NCBI GenBank assembly: GCA_020436025.1 | Contig: JAGQYP010000013.1 | Span: 1-64,000, forward strand | Direction: 5' to 3' | Origin: Crocinitomicaceae bacterium | GTDB taxonomy: Bacteria; Bacteroidota; Bacteroidia; Flavobacteriales_D; Crocinitomicaceae | DNA: 64,000 bases | Part shown: in pieces, positions 772-47,479 of the stretch | How positions within the stretch are numbered: position 1 is the stretch's first letter | Layout of the letters: each line of letters starts with the position of its first letter | Program-made: the position numbers and the translations under genes | Notes under the pieces: generated by a model | The model's database searches: none | Told to the model about the DNA's origin: nothing | What the model saw: the letters and a program-made list of their open reading frames with translations, nothing else

Positions 772-3765
772 TTAGTGCTGAACCCTTATGATAATCTTTG
801 TCCCCATCGGATTCCCTAGTTCATCTTTCAAATCAACTATCTCGAAAGACTTAAAATTTTGACCTTTATTCATGTTGTCTAATCTTTCCTGAGTAACACT
901 TAAAGCTGTTGACCTATGATAATTTGCTATCTGGCTTTTTTGCTTTTCAGCATTTTCGCGTCCCTGCCCATTGTCTTCTACTTCGAATTGAATATACCCA
1001 TCACCAGAGATAAAAGATATTTTGATTTTCCCTTTACGTTCTTTTAATCCTTTTAAGCCATGTATGATTGCATTTTCTACAAATGGTTGAATCATCATTG
1101 GAGGTAAAATATCTTCATCAAGATCTACTCCCTCCTCTACAACTATTTCATATTCAAAATCCTGCCGACTAAACTTCTCAATTATTAAATAATTTTCCAA
1201 CGTTTTAATTTCATCTGAAATAGAAATCAAGCGTTCTCTTGAATTTTCTAATATCTGTCTCATCAATTTTGCAAATTTACTTAGGTAGTACTTTGCCGAC
1301 TTTTCATCCTTTTCTATAATCAGGTGTTGAATCGTATTCAATGAATTGAAAATAAAATGTGGGTTCATTTGCAATCTCAATGCCTTCTGTTCCAACTCAA
1401 TTAATGATTTTTCCATTTCAAGTTTATCTCTCAATTCTCTCCCTCTTTTTCTAGAACGATTCACAAAAAGTAAAACAACACCTATCAGAACAACCAAGCC
1501 TCCACCCCAAACCATAATCAAAAACCAACTTTCCTCCCAATAAGGTTTTTTAATCGCAAAACTAAACTGAATCGGCTCACTCCAGTCTTCTCCCACTCCA
1601 GCGCGGACATAGAATACATAACTACCAGGCCTAAGATTACTATAAGTAATAGAGCTATTGTCTGACGGTTCGGACCACTCAGAATCAAAACCTTTTAATT
1701 TCCATTGGTATTTAACTTTATCTGGAGCTGGTAAAAAAACTGAACCGAAACTGAATGAAAGTGAATTTTGATGGTATTCTAAATCTGAGGTTTCCGAGAA
1801 CAACGTATCGTAAAAAAGCTTTATAGAATTAAAAAAAACAACAGGAGGGGCATTTGTTTTTTCAATTTTTTTAGGCTGATATACCGAAAGGCCATTAACC
1901 GTTCCAAACCATAAATTATTTTCAGAATCCAAAAAACTCGCATTCAAGCTAGTTTCTATTCCCGTAAAACCTTCTTCTGCTCCAAAATGTTTGACTTCAA
2001 GATCTTTAGAAGGGAGTAATTTTAATCGATCTACCCCTTTTTCTGTTCCCACCCAAACATATCCTAAATGATCAGATTGAATTTGATAAATATTATTGGA
2101 ACTCAAACCTGAAATCTTTCTGTAAAAAACAACTGAATCTTCAATGATACATCCAAGTCCCTTTTCAGAGGCAAACCATAATTCTCCATTTGCTCCTTCT
2201 TCGATGGAGGTTATTTTATTAGGAACAGTTGAATTCTCAATATTTAAATATGTCAATTCACCCTTTGACAATATTCCAATTCCTTTATCGTTCGTTGCTA
2301 AAATTAAATCTCCTTTGGAATTGAAGAACATGTGATTGATTCGCTGACTAATCTCTCCCCTCCCTCTTACTTTAAGTTTATTGAAGAAAATTCTAGGAAA
2401 AGTATCTAGCATAACTTTTGCTTTGATTAGTCCATCTCCAAGAGTTGAGATATAGATTTCTCCATTTTTATCTTCTGCAAAACAATTGACCCAAAGCGTA
2501 GATGGAAAAAGTTTGCCTGAATCAAAATTCAGTATGGTATCAAATGATTGAACAAAAATTTCTCTTTTAAGGTCCTTTGATTCACTTCTACGAAAATATA
2601 CTGACATTCCTTTCCCTTCTGTACCAATCCAGATCAGCTGATTTTTTGATTCGAAAAGTGCCTTTACTTTTACATCATGAAATCCAGTCTTACCATTGTA
2701 AACATAATTCATAGTATCATTTATTCTCATGACTCCTCCACCAGAAGTAGCAACCCAAAGCTCTCCGACTTTAGATTTTAAGACCGAATAAATATAATCT
2801 CCATTCAAGCCAGAATTCTCTGTATAATGTAAAAATTGAGATCCCGAATATTGATTTACTCCGCCTCCACTGGTTCCGATCCAGATTTGATTCCAATTAT
2901 CCTCAAAAATGCACTTTACATGATCATTGGATAGTCCTTCATTTTCTCCAAAATGTTCCCACTTTTTGTCATTGGCATCATACCTGTATACACCTTTCCG
3001 TTGCGTCCCTATCCAAAGATTGATTCTACGATCAACAAATATTTCCGTAATGATAAGATCTTGAAACATTTCCAAAGTATCCTTAACAAGGTCGTAGCCA
3101 TTTCCAGACTTATTAAAGACTAAAATTCCTTTACCATAGGAACCCATTAATAATTTACCCTGATAGGAAACCACTTTAGTAATATGCTTTGTCTCAATCT
3201 TCTCAGGCAGAATTTTATCTGAAAGATCAGAAATAGAAACCATTCCTTTATTTGTGGATAGAATCAATCTTGTATCCATCAGAAATAAATCCTCAGGAAT
3301 AAAATTCTTCAAGTCGATTTCTTCAGTTATTCTTTGCAACGAATCTCCAACAAACGTGTAAATATGTTGATCTGTGACCACATATAATTGTTTTTGTATT
3401 TTTTTCAAAATTCTTACTGGTTCAGATAGAGGTATGCTCCTAATTACTGAATTCCGTTTAGAAGACAGAATTGAAAGACCATTATTGGATCCTGCGAAGA
3501 TTGTATCTCCTGAAGAGGACAGAGCATTGACCGTATTTGAAAGCAAACCTTCTGAAATCGTAATTGTAAAAAATTCTTTTCCATCAAACTTGCAAAGCCC
3601 TCCTCCTTGAGTTGCCATCCATAAATAACCCTGGTTATCTTGAGTGATTGAAAAAACTTGTGATTGAGCCAAACCTTCTCTTACTGAAAAAGACTTAAAT
3701 GAAGTTTCTTGACCGATCAAAATCAGAGTAAAACAGAAGAATACTATACTAAGAAAAATTTTCAC
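772..3765 (-). CDS. two-component regulator-propeller sensor histidine kinase (LytS/YehU type)
   Basis: About 997 residues. A signal peptide (MKIFLSIVFFCF...) precedes many regulator-propeller repeats (motif VWxGTxxGG, WIGTxxxG) that fill about residues 25-630. A Y_Y_Y-type beta-sandwich follows (about 650-740), then one membrane helix near 745-767. The cytoplasmic His_kinase module has the phosphoacceptor in QMNPHFIFNSLN (His about 803) and an HATPase_c domain with PFVENAIIHG and DNGQGREN. In this family a periplasmic propeller senses a ligand and the kinase usually signals to a LytTR regulator, but none is adjacent. The start is GTG. I chose GTG at 3765 over GTG at 3780 because it gives a canonical signal peptide and has a -7-like element (TATTTTAG) 4 nt upstream. 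The gene points toward the 16S gene with only about 400 bp between. Confidence 0.9.
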   Translation of the reverse strand: MKIFLSIVFFCFTLILIGQETSFKSFSVREGLAQSQVFSITQDNQGYLWMATQGGGLCKFDGKEFFTITISEGLLSNTVNALSSSGDTIFAGSNNGLSILSSKRNSVIRSIPLSEPVRILKKIQKQLYVVTDQHIYTFVGDSLQRITEEIDLKNFIPEDLFLMDTRLILSTNKGMVSISDLSDKILPEKIETKHITKVVSYQGKLLMGSYGKGILVFNKSGNGYDLVKDTLEMFQDLIITEIFVDRRINLWIGTQRKGVYRYDANDKKWEHFGENEGLSNDHVKCIFEDNWNQIWIGTSGGGVNQYSGSQFLHYTENSGLNGDYIYSVLKSKVGELWVATSGGGVMRINDTMNYVYNGKTGFHDVKVKALFESKNQLIWIGTEGKGMSVYFRRSESKDLKREIFVQSFDTILNFDSGKLFPSTLWVNCFAEDKNGEIYISTLGDGLIKAKVMLDTFPRIFFNKLKVRGRGEISQRINHMFFNSKGDLILATNDKGIGILSKGELTYLNIENSTVPNKITSIEEGANGELWFASEKGLGCIIEDSVVFYRKISGLSSNNIYQIQSDHLGYVWVGTEKGVDRLKLLPSKDLEVKHFGAEEGFTGIETSLNASFLDSENNLWFGTVNGLSVYQPKKIEKTNAPPVVFFNSIKLFYDTLFSETSDLEYHQNSLSFSFGSVFLPAPDKVKYQWKLKGFDSEWSEPSDNSSITYSNLRPGSYVFYVRAGVGEDWSEPIQFSFAIKKPYWEESWFLIMVWGGGLVVLIGVVLLFVNRSRKRGRELRDKLEMEKSLIELEQKALRLQMNPHFIFNSLNTIQHLIIEKDEKSAKYYLSKFAKLMRQILENSRERLISISDEIKTLENYLIIEKFSRQDFEYEIVVEEGVDLDEDILPPMMIQPFVENAIIHGLKGLKERKGKIKISFISGDGYIQFEVEDNGQGRENAEKQKSQIANYHRSTALSVTQERLDNMNKGQNFKSFEIVDLKDELGNPMGTKIIIRVQH

Positions 3766-3769
3766 TTGG

Positions 3770-3777
3770 CTAAAATA
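3770..3777 (-). promoter_or_regulatory. -7-like element 4 nt before sensor kinase start
   Basis: TATTTTAG on the minus strand differs from TAnnTTTG at one base and ends 4 nt before the GTG at 3765. It is counted with the leaderless-type starts described in the findings. Confidence 0.4.
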
Positions 3778-3839
3778 CACAAATGGAGACTTGTTTAAAA
3801 AGACTTTTTATTATTCGATTTAAATCACGTATTAAACGC

Positions 3840-3866
3840 AAAAGGCCGGTTTAATACCGACCTTTT
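3840..3866 (-). terminator. hairpin terminator
   Basis: AAAAGGCCGGT (3840-3850) pairs with ACCGACCTTTT (3856-3866) with one mismatch and a 5-nt loop, directly downstream of the interrupted DUF4389-like gene. The A/T ends let it act in either direction. Confidence 0.75.
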
Positions 3867-3888
3867 AGTATTATTTATTATTTAATAT

Positions 3889-4539
3889 TTAAGAATCTAG
3901 TAGATCATCACTTGCTGGTACTGCAGACCCAGATCCTTCATTTCTTTCAGCATCTGTCATCTTACCAGAGAATGGAGGATATTCGTGATTCATGAAATTC
4001 ATGAAAAAGTTTACTCTAAGAGACCAACGTGCAATCCCTACCATGTAGTCGTGCCAAGGTTTTGGATATTTCCCGGTAATAGCGATGACTAACCATGCAA
4101 AATACATAAGCAACATTGCAGGAATCATGTAGAACATCAATACAATTCCATGAGGAATGATAACGTAGAAAAACCCAAATAAAAATCTCATCCAAGAAGA
4201 AGCGAAAGGAATCTTTTCAGGGTTAGTGGCTTCTAATGTTACATAATCATCTTGACCATTTAATCCAAAAGCTGGATATCCATCACACAAATTCATTAAT
4301 CGAGCCGATACTCTTTGATTCCATCTGTTATATTTTAGAACAAAATCAAAAATTCCTTATGGATATTTACCCGTAAATAAAACTGAAAGCATGGCGATGA
4401 ACTGAGCAAACATCACCCCTATTCCAATAAACATTAGTGGAATCATGTGCGGAATTCCAATGTAGATAATTCCGAAAAAAGTTCTTAAAAGTGCCTCCCC
4501 TCTGGAAAACTCTTCAGCATGTTTAATATCAAATTTCAT
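3889..4539 (-). pseudogene. DUF4389-like two-repeat membrane protein, interrupted by an in-frame TAA at 4357-4359
   Basis: Two open stretches (4539-4360 and 4356-3889) lie in the same frame, separated by a single TAA codon. Together they form about 216 codons made of two homologous halves. Each half has FxGxxYxxIPH, two hydrophobic helices, GKYP, an RW...RV segment and a (D/E)YPxF or GYPAF box. The stop falls straight after GKYP in repeat 1, where repeat 2 has GKYPKPWHDY, so the ancestral codon was probably Lys AAA (one substitution). Sequence after the stop (GIFDFVLKYNRWNQRVSARL) still matches repeat 2, so decay is recent, or this is a sequencing error or read-through. A second product could start at ATG 4296. 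The family is known only as a membrane protein with no firm role. The DUF4389 assignment is from memory of the GKYP/RW/YPPF pattern. Confidence 0.75.
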
Positions 4540-4650
4540 AATTGTAATTTTAGTTTGACTAAATATAGTAGTTATATCAACACAAGCAACTTATTAATCA
4601 TCTAAATATCAAATATATACATCCATAGTTTTTTTTCGTGGAAACAAAAA

Positions 4651-4695: not shown

Positions 4696-6882
4696 CTATT
4701 TAGTAAAAAGGATTTCACGAAGTTTTGGTAATGGCCAATATTCATCATCTACCATCATTTCTAATTTATCACAATGATATTTAATGGGATCGAATAATGA
4801 CTTTACCTCGTCACAATAAGCTATTGCTTTCTTTTTATTGTCTGTAAGTTTATTCACTTTCTTCCTGTTCTGAATCATTTGGTGGACAAGTTTATCCAAC
4901 TCGATCAAGTGCTTCGATATTTTTTCTAAAAAGGAAATTTGAGTACTTGCATGATCTTTGAATTTCGCTCCAAAAATATCTTTCATGCCCTGTACATTTT
5001 TAATCAATTGATTCTGATACTTCACTGTAGCAGGAATCACGTGATTGATAATCATGTCGCCTAGAACTCTAGCTTCAATTTGAAGCTTCATGATATAACT
5101 TTCAAATTCAATTTCTTGTCTTGCTTTTAATTCGATTGGTGTAAGAATCTTCAGATCTGAAAACAACTGTTGAACTTCCTTTTTTTCGTAAATCTCCATT
5201 GCACGGGGAGTATCTTTTAAATTTGATAGCCCTCTTTTTTCAGCTTCTTTCACCCATTCCTCACCATATCCATTTCCTTCGAATCGGATTTTTTTGGATT
5301 CCTTAATTAATTTTTGAAGCTCTTTAAGAATGGCCTCATCTTTCTTATCTCCTGCATCAATTCTGGTATCCACTTTTGCTTTAAACTGGATTAATTGATT
5401 CGCCACGATTGTGTTTAAAACGATCATTGCTTTTCCACAGTTATCAGCAGAACCTACAGCCCTAAACTCAAATTTATTTCCAGTAAATGCAAAAGGAGAA
5501 GTTCTATTTCGATCAGTATTATCAAGAAGAATTTGAGGTATTTTTCCAATATTCAATTTCAAAGCTGTCTTATCTTCTGGAGTCATTTTACCGGCCTTGA
5601 CACTCTTTTCCAACTGATCCAGTAGGTCTGTCAATTGAGATCCAATGAAAACAGAAATGATTGCAGGCGGCGCTTCATTTGCTCCCAATCGGTGATCATT
5701 ACTTGCAGAGGCAATTGCTGCCCTTAGAAGATCTGCATTATCATGGATTGCTTTTATTGTATTAACGAAGAAAGTTAAAAACTGAATATTCGATTTTGGA
5801 TTCTTGCCTGGCTTCAATAGGTTAACTCCTGTGTTTGTTCCTAAGGACCAGTTATTGTGCTTTCCTGAACCATTCAATCCAGAAAAAGGTTTCTCGTGGA
5901 ATAAAATTCTGAAATCGTGCTTTCTAGCAGTTTTCTCAAGCAAATCCATCAATAATAAGTTATGATCATTTGCCAAGTTAGCCTCCTCAAACATTGGTGC
6001 ACATTCGAACTGCATTGGAGCTACTTCATTGTGTCTTGTTGTAACAGGAATCCCTAATTTTAAAGCTTCTTGCTCAAAATCTTTCATAAAAGAAGTTACT
6101 CTTTCAGGAATAGATCCAAAATAGTGATCATCCAATTGTTGACCTTTTGCTGGATTATGTCCGACCAATGTTCTTCCCGTCAATACTAGATCAGGTCTTG
6201 CATTATAAAGAGCCTTATCGATGACAAAGTATTCTTGTTCCCAACCTAGAGTTGCGTTAACCTTAGTCACATTTTTATCAAAATACTGGCAAATATCCGT
6301 TGCAGCATTATCAATTGCGTGTAATGCTTTAATTAAAGGCATCTTATAATCCAATGCTTCACCTGTGTAAGAGATGAAAATAGTTGGAATACAAAGTGTG
6401 TTACCAATTACAAAAGCAGGCGAAGAAGGATCCCAAGCGGTGTATCCTCTTGCTTCAAAAGTATTTCTGATTCCTCCATGAGGGAATGATGAAGCATCTG
6501 GTTCTTGCTGAACTAAAAGTGATCCTTCAAAACGTTCGATGGCTTTTCCTGGACCCACCGGTTGAAAAAATGCGTCATGTTTCTCAGCTGTGGATCCTGT
6601 CAATGGCTGAAACCAGTGAGTATAATGTGTAGCTCCTTTTGAAATTGCCCAGTCTTTCATGGCAGCAGCGATTTGATCTGCTATTCTTTGATCAATTTTA
6701 GATCCATCATGAACAGAGTTCACTACAATATCATAAGCTTCTTCCGTTAAATACTCTCTCATTCTATCTATGTGAAAGACATTTTCACCAAAGTATTCAC
6801 TAATTCTTTGAGAACCGAAATTTACCTCTTTCGGTTTTCTGTGCATGACATCCTGCAACGCAAAACTTCTAATTTTGGACAT
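4696..6882 (-). CDS. glnN: glutamine synthetase type III
   Basis: Makes glutamine from glutamate, ammonia and ATP in the cytoplasm. The 728-residue length and the N-terminal block (FGENVF, HRKPKEVNFG) are those of the GSIII class common in Bacteroidota and cyanobacteria, much longer than GSI (about 470). Catalytic-core motifs visible are TRHNEVAPMQFE, NGSGKHNNWSLGTN and RTSPFAFTGNKFEFR, and the long C-terminal helical region of GSIII is present. It stands alone, with a strong terminator downstream and a TACCTTTG -7 element 18 nt upstream of the ATG. With gdhA (25671) it provides both routes of ammonia assimilation within the window. No PII or NtrC gene is nearby. Confidence 0.96.
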   Translation of the reverse strand: MSKIRSFALQDVMHRKPKEVNFGSQRISEYFGENVFHIDRMREYLTEEAYDIVVNSVHDGSKIDQRIADQIAAAMKDWAISKGATHYTHWFQPLTGSTAEKHDAFFQPVGPGKAIERFEGSLLVQQEPDASSFPHGGIRNTFEARGYTAWDPSSPAFVIGNTLCIPTIFISYTGEALDYKMPLIKALHAIDNAATDICQYFDKNVTKVNATLGWEQEYFVIDKALYNARPDLVLTGRTLVGHNPAKGQQLDDHYFGSIPERVTSFMKDFEQEALKLGIPVTTRHNEVAPMQFECAPMFEEANLANDHNLLLMDLLEKTARKHDFRILFHEKPFSGLNGSGKHNNWSLGTNTGVNLLKPGKNPKSNIQFLTFFVNTIKAIHDNADLLRAAIASASNDHRLGANEAPPAIISVFIGSQLTDLLDQLEKSVKAGKMTPEDKTALKLNIGKIPQILLDNTDRNRTSPFAFTGNKFEFRAVGSADNCGKAMIVLNTIVANQLIQFKAKVDTRIDAGDKKDEAILKELQKLIKESKKIRFEGNGYGEEWVKEAEKRGLSNLKDTPRAMEIYEKKEVQQLFSDLKILTPIELKARQEIEFESYIMKLQIEARVLGDMIINHVIPATVKYQNQLIKNVQGMKDIFGAKFKDHASTQISFLEKISKHLIELDKLVHQMIQNRKKVNKLTDNKKKAIAYCDEVKSLFDPIKYHCDKLEMMVDDEYWPLPKLREILFTK

Positions 6883-7520: not shown

Positions 7521-8948
7521 TTAATTGAAATTATTTATATCCCATGGAGCTGCATTTCTTTGAGGAAAATCAGCTCTACCAAATTTTTGCTCATAATATC
7601 CTTCTCCAAATTTATCATTCATCATTTTGACAATCCTTTCTTCCACCTTGTATGACTCCGGATTAAACATTACATTTTTATCGTGAATAGTTGATTCAAA
7701 TTCTGAAATTGTATTGGCCGAAAGAAATTGAAGAGGAACCGCTTCAGGATAAACTTTATTTTTAAGAAATTCAGTATAAAACTGAGAATAATCGATGTGG
7801 TTTCCCTCTACCTCCCATTTAAATATTTCGTGGTTAAACATTTCTAAAAAAGTGACACCAAAATATTTTTCAAGTTGTTTTTCCTCTTGTTTGATGATAC
7901 CTGGCATACAATTTTTAATGTATTCGGCATGCTCTTTCTTTTCGTTGTAAGTAGCCATCATGGTATAAGGCGCATAAGAAGGAAAATATTGACTATTTGC
8001 AATTATCAAACTATCAAGATGGTCTAAAATATTGAAGAATCGATCTTTCAATTCATTCCAATAGATTTTCTTTGGTTCTAACTCCCTACAAATTCTATTA
8101 TCTGCTAAAGTAACTTCAAGAGAATTAGGAACCCCAAATTTAGCTTTAGAAGCAAGAGTATCAAAAGCTAAAAGAATTCTTTCCTTTTCTTCTATTTCAA
8201 ATGGATTTGTCTTCCAGGCTTTTGCCATATCTAATTGATAAACCATTCCGTCTCTAACAACAGCACTACCTTCCATCGCCTTATCCATGCCCTTCTCAAT
8301 CTGAATTTTCAGAAATAAAGGCAAAGTCATTCCAGGTTCTTCACCTAGTTTTATTAATGCCTCAATTGGCTCAATCAATCCTTTTTCATCAAACAAAGCG
8401 TCCATTTCTTTGTGGATTAACTCAGATCTTTTTCGCCCATCATTTTGATCTGCTTCACGAGCTTCTTCTAACGCTTCATTCATCTTTGAATCAAACATTG
8501 GCGAATTTGTAATGCCTCCATATTGATCTGAGTTCCTTTTAAGATAATCCATGGTTTGCTGGGTACTAGCTTCTTGAGAATAACCTTCTGCAATTGCAAT
8601 TGCTTCTTGCTTTCCTTCCCTTATTCTTTGAACAGCATACCTTAATGCATCTACGGTTTGCTTTAATAATGTTGCATCATCATATCCTGTTTCTTCTTGA
8701 GTTGCTTGAGCTTCAGATGCCAATGCTTTACCATAGTGATCAGAAAAAGTCCCGAAAAGATTCTCTTGCATGATCGCACCATTAAACTCATTGATGTCAC
8801 TTAACTGCTGCCCTAACTCTTCCATACGGCTAAGAGCCCCATTCATTTTATCAACATCCTCCCCTTGAAGGCCTTTACTTTCGATGTCTTTTGCCATACC
8901 TCTAAAAGTATCAAGCATGGCATTTAATATCATTGGATCAATTGGCAT
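7521..8948 (-). CDS. hypothetical protein, second gene of an unknown two-gene operon
   Basis: I do not recognise this 475-residue protein. It has no signal peptide or membrane segment, is acidic and looks mostly alpha-helical. An N-terminal region of short helices rich in Q, E and M covers about residues 1-190. A central region has WKTNPFEIEEKERILLAFD, and an aromatic-rich C-terminal half contains YFPSYAPYTMMATYN and PAWPWDI-like ending (AAPWDINNF). It starts 12 bp after the stop of the 217-residue gene upstream, so the two are almost certainly co-transcribed. No enzyme motif, Walker box or Zn cluster is visible. A structural or complex-forming role is possible but unsupported. Confidence 0.8.
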   Translation of the reverse strand: MPIDPMILNAMLDTFRGMAKDIESKGLQGEDVDKMNGALSRMEELGQQLSDINEFNGAIMQENLFGTFSDHYGKALASEAQATQEETGYDDATLLKQTVDALRYAVQRIREGKQEAIAIAEGYSQEASTQQTMDYLKRNSDQYGGITNSPMFDSKMNEALEEAREADQNDGRKRSELIHKEMDALFDEKGLIEPIEALIKLGEEPGMTLPLFLKIQIEKGMDKAMEGSAVVRDGMVYQLDMAKAWKTNPFEIEEKERILLAFDTLASKAKFGVPNSLEVTLADNRICRELEPKKIYWNELKDRFFNILDHLDSLIIANSQYFPSYAPYTMMATYNEKKEHAEYIKNCMPGIIKQEEKQLEKYFGVTFLEMFNHEIFKWEVEGNHIDYSQFYTEFLKNKVYPEAVPLQFLSANTISEFESTIHDKNVMFNPESYKVEERIVKMMNDKFGEGYYEQKFGRADFPQRNAAPWDINNFN

Positions 8949-8960
8949 TTTCTTTTTCTT

Positions 8961-9614
8961 TTAAATAATTCTTTTGTATTGTTCTAACTTTTCTTCAAGG
9001 TGCTGCTTGGAATAAGGCACTAATCTGAAATGGTGAGGATTTAAATTTTCCTCAGGATGATAACTCCAATTCGGATCCCAATCTCGATTGTTTTTTTCTA
9101 AGTGATTTTTTGATTCTTTTATTCTATTGACTGCTGTCTCTACTCTTCTTTGCATTGATGACTTATAGCTTGATGGAACCTCAGCATTAGAATATATTTC
9201 AATATCATCCATGTACTTCCATTCATCGGAAATAAAATATCTTACACTTTCATCCATCGATATTTCGATACTATTCTTATTTTCTTCTTCTTGTGCAACA
9301 GTAATTACTTCTTGAGTAGTCGAAAGCGATTTGCACTTTTCTAAAATTCGATTTGCGGCTAAAACACGAACTGGTTCACCTAACTCATCAAAATACTTTT
9401 TACGCATGGTATACTCATCAATTGTTAAATTGACTGCATTTTGCTCATTCAAGTTCCCTAATTTTTCTTTGAATTCTCCCAATTCTGCACAAGAGTTCAT
9501 AGCCTCGTACATGGCATTTTCAGTTTGATAAGTATTAGGATAATTGGGATTGTCTTCATAGCGCTCTTTGCGCACTTTATAATATTCCTTGTATTGGGTT
9601 AGCAAATCGCTCAT
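8961..9614 (-). CDS. hypothetical protein, first gene of an unknown two-gene operon
   Basis: I do not recognise this 217-residue protein. It is soluble, charged and helical, with many Tyr and Glu residues (KEYYKVRKERYEDNPNYPNTYQ at the start), a central helix pair and a C-terminal WDPNWSYHPEENLNPHHF segment. Like its partner at 7521-8948 it lacks export signals and catalytic motifs. The 12-bp gap to that gene and shared style suggest partner proteins of one complex. No matching -7 element is evident in the 280 bp upstream (9615-9894), which it shares with the divergent stress-protein gene. Confidence 0.78.
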   Translation of the reverse strand: MSDLLTQYKEYYKVRKERYEDNPNYPNTYQTENAMYEAMNSCAELGEFKEKLGNLNEQNAVNLTIDEYTMRKKYFDELGEPVRVLAANRILEKCKSLSTTQEVITVAQEEENKNSIEISMDESVRYFISDEWKYMDDIEIYSNAEVPSSYKSSMQRRVETAVNRIKESKNHLEKNNRDWDPNWSYHPEENLNPHHFRLVPYSKQHLEEKLEQYKRII

Positions 9615-17469: not shown

Positions 17470-18186
17470 ATGAAAGTTGATATTCTTTGTATTGGGGCGC
17501 ATCCAGATGATGTTGAATTATCTTGTTCGGGAACGGTGTTGAAATCAATTGCACAAGGTAAAAAAGTAGCTCTCATCGATTTGACCGAAGGGGAATTGGG
17601 TTCGAATGGAACAATAGAAACTCGATATGCGGAAGCTGCCGAAGCGTCTAAAATATTAGGAATTTCTGATCGTGTCAATTTAAAAATGCAGGATGGATTT
17701 TTTGAAATCACAGAAGAAAATTTGCGCAAATTAATTGTTCAAATTCGAAGATTTCGACCAGATATTGTTTTGTGTAATGCAGTTTCTGACCGCCACCCGG
17801 ATCACGGTCGTGGAGGAGATCTTGCTTCCAGAGCATGTTTTCTTTCAGGATTGGTTAAAATTAAAACCGAATTGGAAGGAAAAACCCAAGAGAGATGGAG
17901 ACCAAAAGCCGTATATAGATACATACAAGATCGTTATTTGAAGCCTGACTTCGTAGTCGATATTACAGATTTTGTAGATCAAAAAATGGCCTCAATAAAA
18001 GCTTATAAGACTCAATTTTATGATCCGAAACATACTGGAATCAATACCCCGATTTCCGGTGAGAATTTCTTAACCGCTTTAAAAGGAAAATGGGCTGATT
18101 ATGGTCGTTCTATTGGGGTAGATTATGCAGAAGGATTTAATGTTGAGAGACCCATGGGAGTAGAAGACCTCTCCGATATTTTATAA
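17470..18186 (+). CDS. bshB1: bacillithiol biosynthesis deacetylase BshB1
   Basis: A 238-residue zinc-dependent LmbE/PIG-L deacetylase that removes the acetyl group from GlcNAc-malate in bacillithiol synthesis. The zinc-site motif GAHPDDVELSCSGT (about residues 10-23) and the second ligand motif SDRHPDHGRGGDLA are clear. The subgroup features LTEGELGSNGT and ETRYAEAAEASKILG are those of BshB1. This suggests the organism uses bacillithiol as its low-molecular-weight thiol. Its stop codon overlaps the next start (TAATG). Confidence 0.93.
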   Translation: MKVDILCIGAHPDDVELSCSGTVLKSIAQGKKVALIDLTEGELGSNGTIETRYAEAAEASKILGISDRVNLKMQDGFFEITEENLRKLIVQIRRFRPDIVLCNAVSDRHPDHGRGGDLASRACFLSGLVKIKTELEGKTQERWRPKAVYRYIQDRYLKPDFVVDITDFVDQKMASIKAYKTQFYDPKHTGINTPISGENFLTALKGKWADYGRSIGVDYAEGFNVERPMGVEDLSDIL

Positions 18187-18446
18187 TGATTAGGAGCTAC
18201 ATATTCATATTCATTTTATTGGGTTGTTCTTCAGAAAAAACAACTCCCAGTCAAGCTCCTGAGAAAGAATCGCAACCGAAAAACAAATCTCCTAAGGAAT
18301 TTGCTCTTGAATATTGTGAATGCATGAAAAATGATCAGGCTACCAAAAGTTGTGAATCCATTTTAAGTGAATTTCAGTCTACATTTGGAAAACAAAACAA
18401 GGAGGCTGAAAAAGAATTTTCAATTGAAATGCAGAACTGTTTGTAA
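18186..18446 (+). CDS. small Cys-rich lipoprotein, copy 1
   Basis: An 86-residue predicted lipoprotein (FILLGC lipobox, Cys about 14). A polar P/K/E-rich linker leads to a compact C-terminal domain with spacing FALEYCECM...C..I...F...C. It shares this Cys layout with the next gene (18486-18716), so the two are tandem paralogs. The four domain Cys could form two disulfides. Function unknown. It starts inside the bshB1 stop codon. Confidence 0.78.
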   Translation: MIRSYIFIFILLGCSSEKTTPSQAPEKESQPKNKSPKEFALEYCECMKNDQATKSCESILSEFQSTFGKQNKEAEKEFSIEMQNCL

Positions 18447-18485: not shown

Positions 18486-18716
18486 ATGCTCAAAATCATC
18501 TGTTTTAGTGCCGTATCAAGTTTAATTCTCATCTCTTGTGGATCAAAAACTCCAGAAGATTATGCAAAAGAATATTGTCAGTGCATGCAACAATACCAAG
18601 ATAATCCTGTCAGATGTAAGGATATTCTTGAAGATGCGAAATCAGAATTCGGCGAAGACAATGAAGAAGCTAAAAAGGAATTTAAAAATGCGTATAAATC
18701 CTGTATGGAAGAATAG
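18486..18716 (+). CDS. small Cys-rich lipoprotein, copy 2
   Basis: A 76-residue predicted lipoprotein (LILISC lipobox, Cys about 18). The C-terminal domain YAKEYCQCMQQY...C..IL..A...FG..N.EAKKEF...C matches copy 1 position by position. Its linker is shorter. The stop is 2 bp from that of the convergent FG-GAP gene. Function unknown. Confidence 0.78.
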   Translation: MLKIICFSAVSSLILISCGSKTPEDYAKEYCQCMQQYQDNPVRCKDILEDAKSEFGEDNEEAKKEFKNAYKSCMEE

Positions 18717-47092: not shown

Positions 47093-47479
47093 TTAAACTC
47101 TTCTTCTTTTCGGAGGTCTACATCCGTTATGAGGAAGTGGAGTAACATCAACGATTTCCGACACCTCAATTCCGCTATTATGAATCGTTCTGATAGCAGA
47201 TTCTCTTCCTGAACCAGGACCTTTAACATAAACCTTCACTCTTCTTAATCCAAGATCGTAAGCTTCTTTTGAACAATCCTGGGCAGCCATTTGTGCTGCA
47301 TAAGGAGTATTCTTTTTAGAACCTCTGAATCCCATCTTACCAGCTGAAGACCATGATAGTACTTCACCAGCATTGTTCGTTAAAGAAATAATGATGTTGT
47401 TAAATGATGCACTAATGTGAGCTTGCCCAACTGCATCAACTTTAACATTCTTTTTCTTTGCTTTATTAGATTTTGCCAT
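47093..47479 (-). CDS. rpsK: 30S ribosomal protein S11
   Basis: 128 residues with [22 protein letters not shown], the [11 protein letters not shown] loop and the C-terminal [16 protein letters not shown]. It is part of the 30S platform near the mRNA exit and the E-site. It sits 14 bp after rpsM. Confidence 0.98.

Follow-up and report, generated by a model that had tools for sequence, protein, structure and literature searches.

Surveys of the type made by Liu et al. reportedly describe bacterial pseudogenes in general. It has also been proposed by Belinky et al. (2021; PMC7918605) that in-frame stops lower expression on purpose in many bacterial genes. The gene described here belongs to the DUF4389 family (PF14333). 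A literature search for a characterised member of this family found none: DUF4389 was met only as a gene-list entry, and PF14333 nowhere.

Here, we describe a DUF4389 gene with a single in-frame TAA in a 64,000-nucleotide stretch of a Crocinitomicaceae genome (hereafter, the window). The source assembly is a draft (3.64 Mb, 192 contigs; completeness 97.89, contamination 2.54). Most probably, the TAA arose recently as an unremarkable nonsense mutation in a gene that the cell can spare.

An interrupted tandem DUF4389 gene

The gene at 3889-4539 of the minus strand reads as a single frame from its initial methionine to its terminal stop. Translation shows exactly one internal TAA, at codon 61 of 216 (window positions 4357-4359), and apart from this codon the frame contains no second stop and no frameshift. 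Around the TAA lie two open reading frames (ORFs): one of 60 aa at 4357-4539 and another, of 135 aa, that occupies 3889-4296 and has its ATG at 4296. The first-pass annotation had reported both the TAA and the two frames, and it was right in coordinates and anatomy. The features discussed below are:

3889..4539, minus strand: tandem DUF4389 membrane-protein gene, 216 codons long before its terminal stop and carrying one in-frame TAA (from translation, Pfam and the orthologue in genome G001)
4357..4359, minus strand: the in-frame TAA, codon 61; a sense codon in that column in 33/33 aligned relatives
4360..4539, minus strand: first open part, 60 codons, predicted strand and long membrane helix of repeat 1 (G001 model, H13-56)
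4297..4356, minus strand: 20 codons from the stop to the next ATG, coding the RW..R helix of repeat 1 (from sequence; helix 61-81 of the G001 model)
3889..4296, minus strand: second open part, 135 aa from the ATG at 4296, including the whole of repeat 2 (DUF4389 at 31.4 bits, cut-off 25)
4270..4467, minus strand: DUF4389 repeat 1, containing the stop (PF14333, 28.8 bits)
3970..4194, minus strand: DUF4389 repeat 2 (PF14333, 29.2 bits)
4610..4617, minus strand: promoter candidate TATATTTG, fitting TAnnTTTG, 78 nt ahead of the start codon; a lead only
3841..3866, minus strand: terminator-like hairpin followed by a short T run, directly downstream of the DUF4389 gene (fold of 3801-3888, -18.4 kcal/mol)
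4696..6882, minus strand: neighbouring glnN, type III glutamine synthetase, 91% identical in G001
772..3780, minus strand: neighbouring two-component regulator propeller/histidine kinase; the start of a similar gene is at the equivalent place in G001

Read through, with an X at the stop, the frame matches PF14333 at 51.4 bits against a cut-off of 25 (E 1e-13), and each repeat alone scores above the gathering score of that family. Aligned to each other, the two halves are 36% identical over 56 aa (E 2e-9). Thus, the initial description of the gene as DUF4389-like, with homologous halves, holds on both counts. The motif TAnnTTTG, which TATATTTG fits, is the Bacteroidota -7 motif. The promoter-like and terminator-like sequences on either side of the gene are consistent with its transcription as a single gene.

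Among the 52 frames of at least 150 codons in the window, 39 are terminated by TAA. TAA is thus an ordinary stop here, and on this ground an alternative genetic code was rejected.

We compared the locus with that of G001, the sole other genome of the genus in the comparison, which contained no genome of the same species. Both share the gene order DUF2452 - glnN - DUF4389 - propeller histidine kinase. The G001 orthologue at this locus is intact: it has an open frame of 217 codons and is 57% identical to the window copy over 1-216, compared with the 91% seen for GlnN. Coverage of G001 appears to be about 1, so its sequence may itself hold errors.

Two other sets of ORFs in the window were noted. 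On the minus strand, 7521-8948 and 8961-9614 (475 and 217 aa) lie in the same frame, 12 bases apart, without a Pfam match; an ORF resembling the end of the former sits upstream of DUF2452 and glnN in G001. On the plus strand, the adjoining small ORFs 18186-18446 and 18486-18716 (86 and 76 aa) have lipoprotein-like starts, similar C-x-C spacing and no Pfam match, and are probably tandem paralogues.

In-frame stops among relatives and in control genes

The DUF4389 gene has a patchy distribution. Matches occur in 10/150 genomes of the family, 34/299 of the order, 27/395 of the class and 9/395 of the phylum, each count including the window's own genome. The order provided 31 full-length copies, with G001 counted in and three loci of the named collection left out; the copy in genome G345 is cut by a contig end. 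Four of the 31, the window copy among them, carry an in-frame stop; the copies occupy separate tree branches, and their stops fall at codons that all differ. Besides the TAA at codon 61 of the window copy, these are a TAA at codon 58 in G158 (locus L022) and, numbered within the match, a TAA at codon 9 in G240 (L021) and a TAG at codon 93 in G212 (L034). Because the G240 stop lies near the start, a downstream restart could rescue that copy.

No shared stop was found in the family of G158, where one of three genomes (G158 itself) has the gene, or in the genus of G212, where 7/17 have it and the two copies with stops, those of G212 and G308, have them at distinct positions. In both G212 (L074) and G240 (L075), which represent different genera, the DUF4389 gene stands beside a protein of ~230-260 aa, followed by a long frame that presumably resembles SecD/SecF. 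This common setting suggests an old vertical location in that family.

Two further copies have decayed. The copy in G107 retains about 32 codons, after which several stops follow, and that in G308 (L072) has one repeat's worth left, with a TAA. At its start, the one-repeat protein of L072 resembles repeat 1 of the related G345 copy, and at its end repeat 2; judging from these resemblances, it is possibly a fusion of the two repeats. An origin by recombination between repeats was a guess that we set aside: a 12-mer test of the G345 gene detected no exact repeat in it, and at the DNA level the second part matches weakly (65/111).

Over the matched part, copies in relatives are mostly single frames: 27/31 full-length copies in the order, 27/27 further loci in the class sample (26 genomes) and 8/8 loci in the phylum sample, the last two sets being free of internal stops. 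The first-pass annotation had raised the prospect that relatives might encode two separate proteins as a rule; those sampled do not. Several flagged stops proved to be ordinary ends of the gene, namely those at codons 193-195, past the conserved end, in G216, G220, G252 and G352; those at codons 193-196 in the class genomes G364, G433, G568, G612 and G726; and those in G902 and G965, which coincide with the close of the alignment or lie beyond it. The supposed remnant in G302 runs off its contig, which ends at 47413, and its 69 codons are open. A weak match in G073 (E 5.4e-4), located in a long, different frame, was dropped.

Adjacent genes served as controls. DUF2452, a shorter gene of 153 aa, has stops in 1/115 genomes with a strong match (best matches at E 1.9e-29 or better in 115 of 129 matching genomes, the 14 weaker being set aside; the count also excludes stop-containing secondary matches in G215, with two TGA, and G162, with two TAA). 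The frequency in DUF4389 is higher (4/31 versus 1/115; Fisher P = 0.007), also without the window copy, which was picked for its stop (3/30 versus 1/115; P = 0.028). The excess of the order over the rest of the class is not significant (4/31 versus 0/27 loci; P = 0.12). For glnN, stops occur in 1/33 matching genomes (G308 again, with two TGA), a count that alone is not decisive per gene. No stops were found among the ABC_tran matches listed in G000, G001, G158, G240 and G212 (35 of 42 being listed for the window's own genome). As these controls show few stops or none, the assemblies as a whole are not rich in stops. Thus, the DUF4389 family seems enriched for stops in the order, on small numbers, and there the gene appears to be dispensable and to have been lost repeatedly. 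Separately, the DUF2452 gene of G137 (C86, 524-943; 54% identity) has one TGA and four TAG in frame, and is a pseudogene, a misassembly or a case of changed code.

The main rival to a nonsense mutation is a consensus or assembly error, with the gene intact in the organism and the TAA a wrong base in the 192-contig draft. A single wrong base would suffice, and the remaining frame is perfect. We nevertheless consider this unlikely: in the same genome, the listed ABC_tran matches, glnN and DUF2452 contain no in-frame stop, and frame inspection shows no other gene of the window apparently split by one stop. Together these amount to a few thousand codons, a sample that a rare error could escape.

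It is conceivable, and in our view highly doubtful, that recurrent selection in the order favours nonsense mutations that silence or throttle the tandem DUF4389 proteins, so that the gene would toggle by point mutation and not simply decay. The membrane protein might, for instance, be costly or expose the cell to an attacker, and broken copies would leak some protein by read-through or restart, or be restored later.

The age of the stop and the fate of the protein

Modelled with AlphaFold, the intact G001 orthologue (mean pLDDT 85.3, 23 sequences) is predicted to be a helical membrane protein, with long helices at 13-56 and 111-157. According to this model, the intact protein is membrane-embedded and composed of two strand-helix-helix repeats. 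The stop lies within repeat 1, at the residue that opens helix 61-81. Foldseek found nothing in the PDB with an E value of 0.001 or less. The best VIA-align match, a light-driven sodium pump (Z 3.8, 106 aligned, rmsd 5.0), is within the chance range for helical models and was rejected.

Taken together, the sequence comparisons make it probable that this two-repeat gene recently gained one nonsense mutation and that its full-length protein is no longer made. The orthologue at the same locus in G001 is intact, and the stop is shared with none of the 33 aligned relatives, all of other species. Ribosomes would halt at codon 61, the 60-residue product, a strand and a membrane helix, would be non-functional, and the gene would be heading to loss, as appears to have happened independently elsewhere in the order. 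Among the four options that the first-pass annotation had left standing, fresh inactivation is thus the best supported. The annotation should then most likely show a single broken gene instead of two small proteins.

The residue that was lost is a different matter. It had been read as Lys from the equivalent place in repeat 2, which the alignment does not support. In the stop column, R is found in 13 of the 33 relatives, E in 7, K in 6, Q in 2, and N, P, L, V and S in one each. Since the two repeats agree at this position in only 6/33 relatives and the G001 orthologue has Gln, repeat 2 is no guide to the original residue.

Conserved residues past the stop have not been lost in excess. Among columns conserved at 90% or more, the window copy departs at 2/25, compared with 7/26 for the intact G001 copy. 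Its end branch is short (0.26; G001 0.59; median 0.26), and past the stop the NG86 dN/dS against G001 comes to 0.24, at a dS close to saturation. Because the frame is otherwise intact, the conserved columns are largely kept and the end branch is short, either the stop is recent or the protein still works. The lack of decay is as expected for a recent stop and so is not decisive. It counts to some extent against a recent pseudogene, because undamaged sequence past the stop fits ongoing function by read-through as well.

Under such read-through, the TAA would be decoded often enough to give some full-length protein, perhaps deliberately lowering expression. The preserved frame and conserved residues would fit this, as would the four full-length copies of the order that each carry one otherwise lone stop. 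Those four stops fall at four codons, none common to two genomes, unlike a programmed recoding site conserved at one position across species. Moreover, TAA is the usual terminator in the window, and UAA is the least leaky stop. We therefore regard read-through, an option that the first-pass annotation had kept, as the most improbable of the readings considered here.

Very improbable, too, is a split protein, in which ORFs 4357-4539 and 3889-4296 would both be translated and the parts assemble. The second ORF does hold a complete DUF4389 unit, and Pseudomonas aeruginosa has an annotated DUF4389 protein with one domain, about 113 aa long (PMC12054119). The NG86 dN/dS against G001 is 0.83 for the 20 codons from stop to ATG, compared with 0.18 downstream, as for an untranslated linker, on too few sites to weigh. 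Across those same 20 codons, however, all 90%-conserved columns are retained in the window copy, and G001 departs at one or more of them (A79S). The stop interrupts repeat 1 at the start of its second helix rather than falling between the repeats, and the first ATG comes 60 bases past the stop codon. Because no ATG, GTG or TTG occurs in the 20 codons between the stop and the ATG at 4296, the RW..R helix 61-81 would be in neither ORF. The first part (4360-4539) has no Pfam match alone. The ATG at 4296 is itself inherited, M being present in that column in 6/33 relatives, and the 20 nt upstream of it are less A-rich than those at the true start (7 versus 10 A). The suggestion of two working halves is therefore disfavoured. 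Since the second ORF is a full DUF4389 unit and single-unit DUF4389 proteins exist, a residual one-repeat protein may still be made from it.

Comparison with known systems

Alone, a single recently stopped DUF4389 gene matters little beyond the annotation fix. The more useful by-product concerns the DUF4389 family: in one order it appears to be dispensable and to have been broken repeatedly, while none of the 35 loci sampled beyond that order has an internal stop.

Full-length relatives occur in other Bacteroidia-like genomes as well as in two Ignavibacteriota metagenome-assembled genomes; within PF14333, the gene resembles these and differs from them in the stop in repeat 1. It resembles the tolerated or read-through stops of Belinky et al. 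(2021; PMC7918605) in that its frame looks conserved on both sides of the stop. The best cases in that paper share their stop between species, whereas the window stop is unshared in the sampled relatives. The likeness to young bacterial pseudogenes, such as those of Kuo and Ochman (2010; PMC2916853), goes further: there is a single inactivating change, the rest of the gene is intact, an intact orthologue is found nearby, and other copies in the order are absent or decayed. Thus, the window gene is most likely a fairly ordinary case of gene decay, set apart from young pseudogenes by the several independent breaks of the DUF4389 family in one order, at a frequency above that of the control gene.
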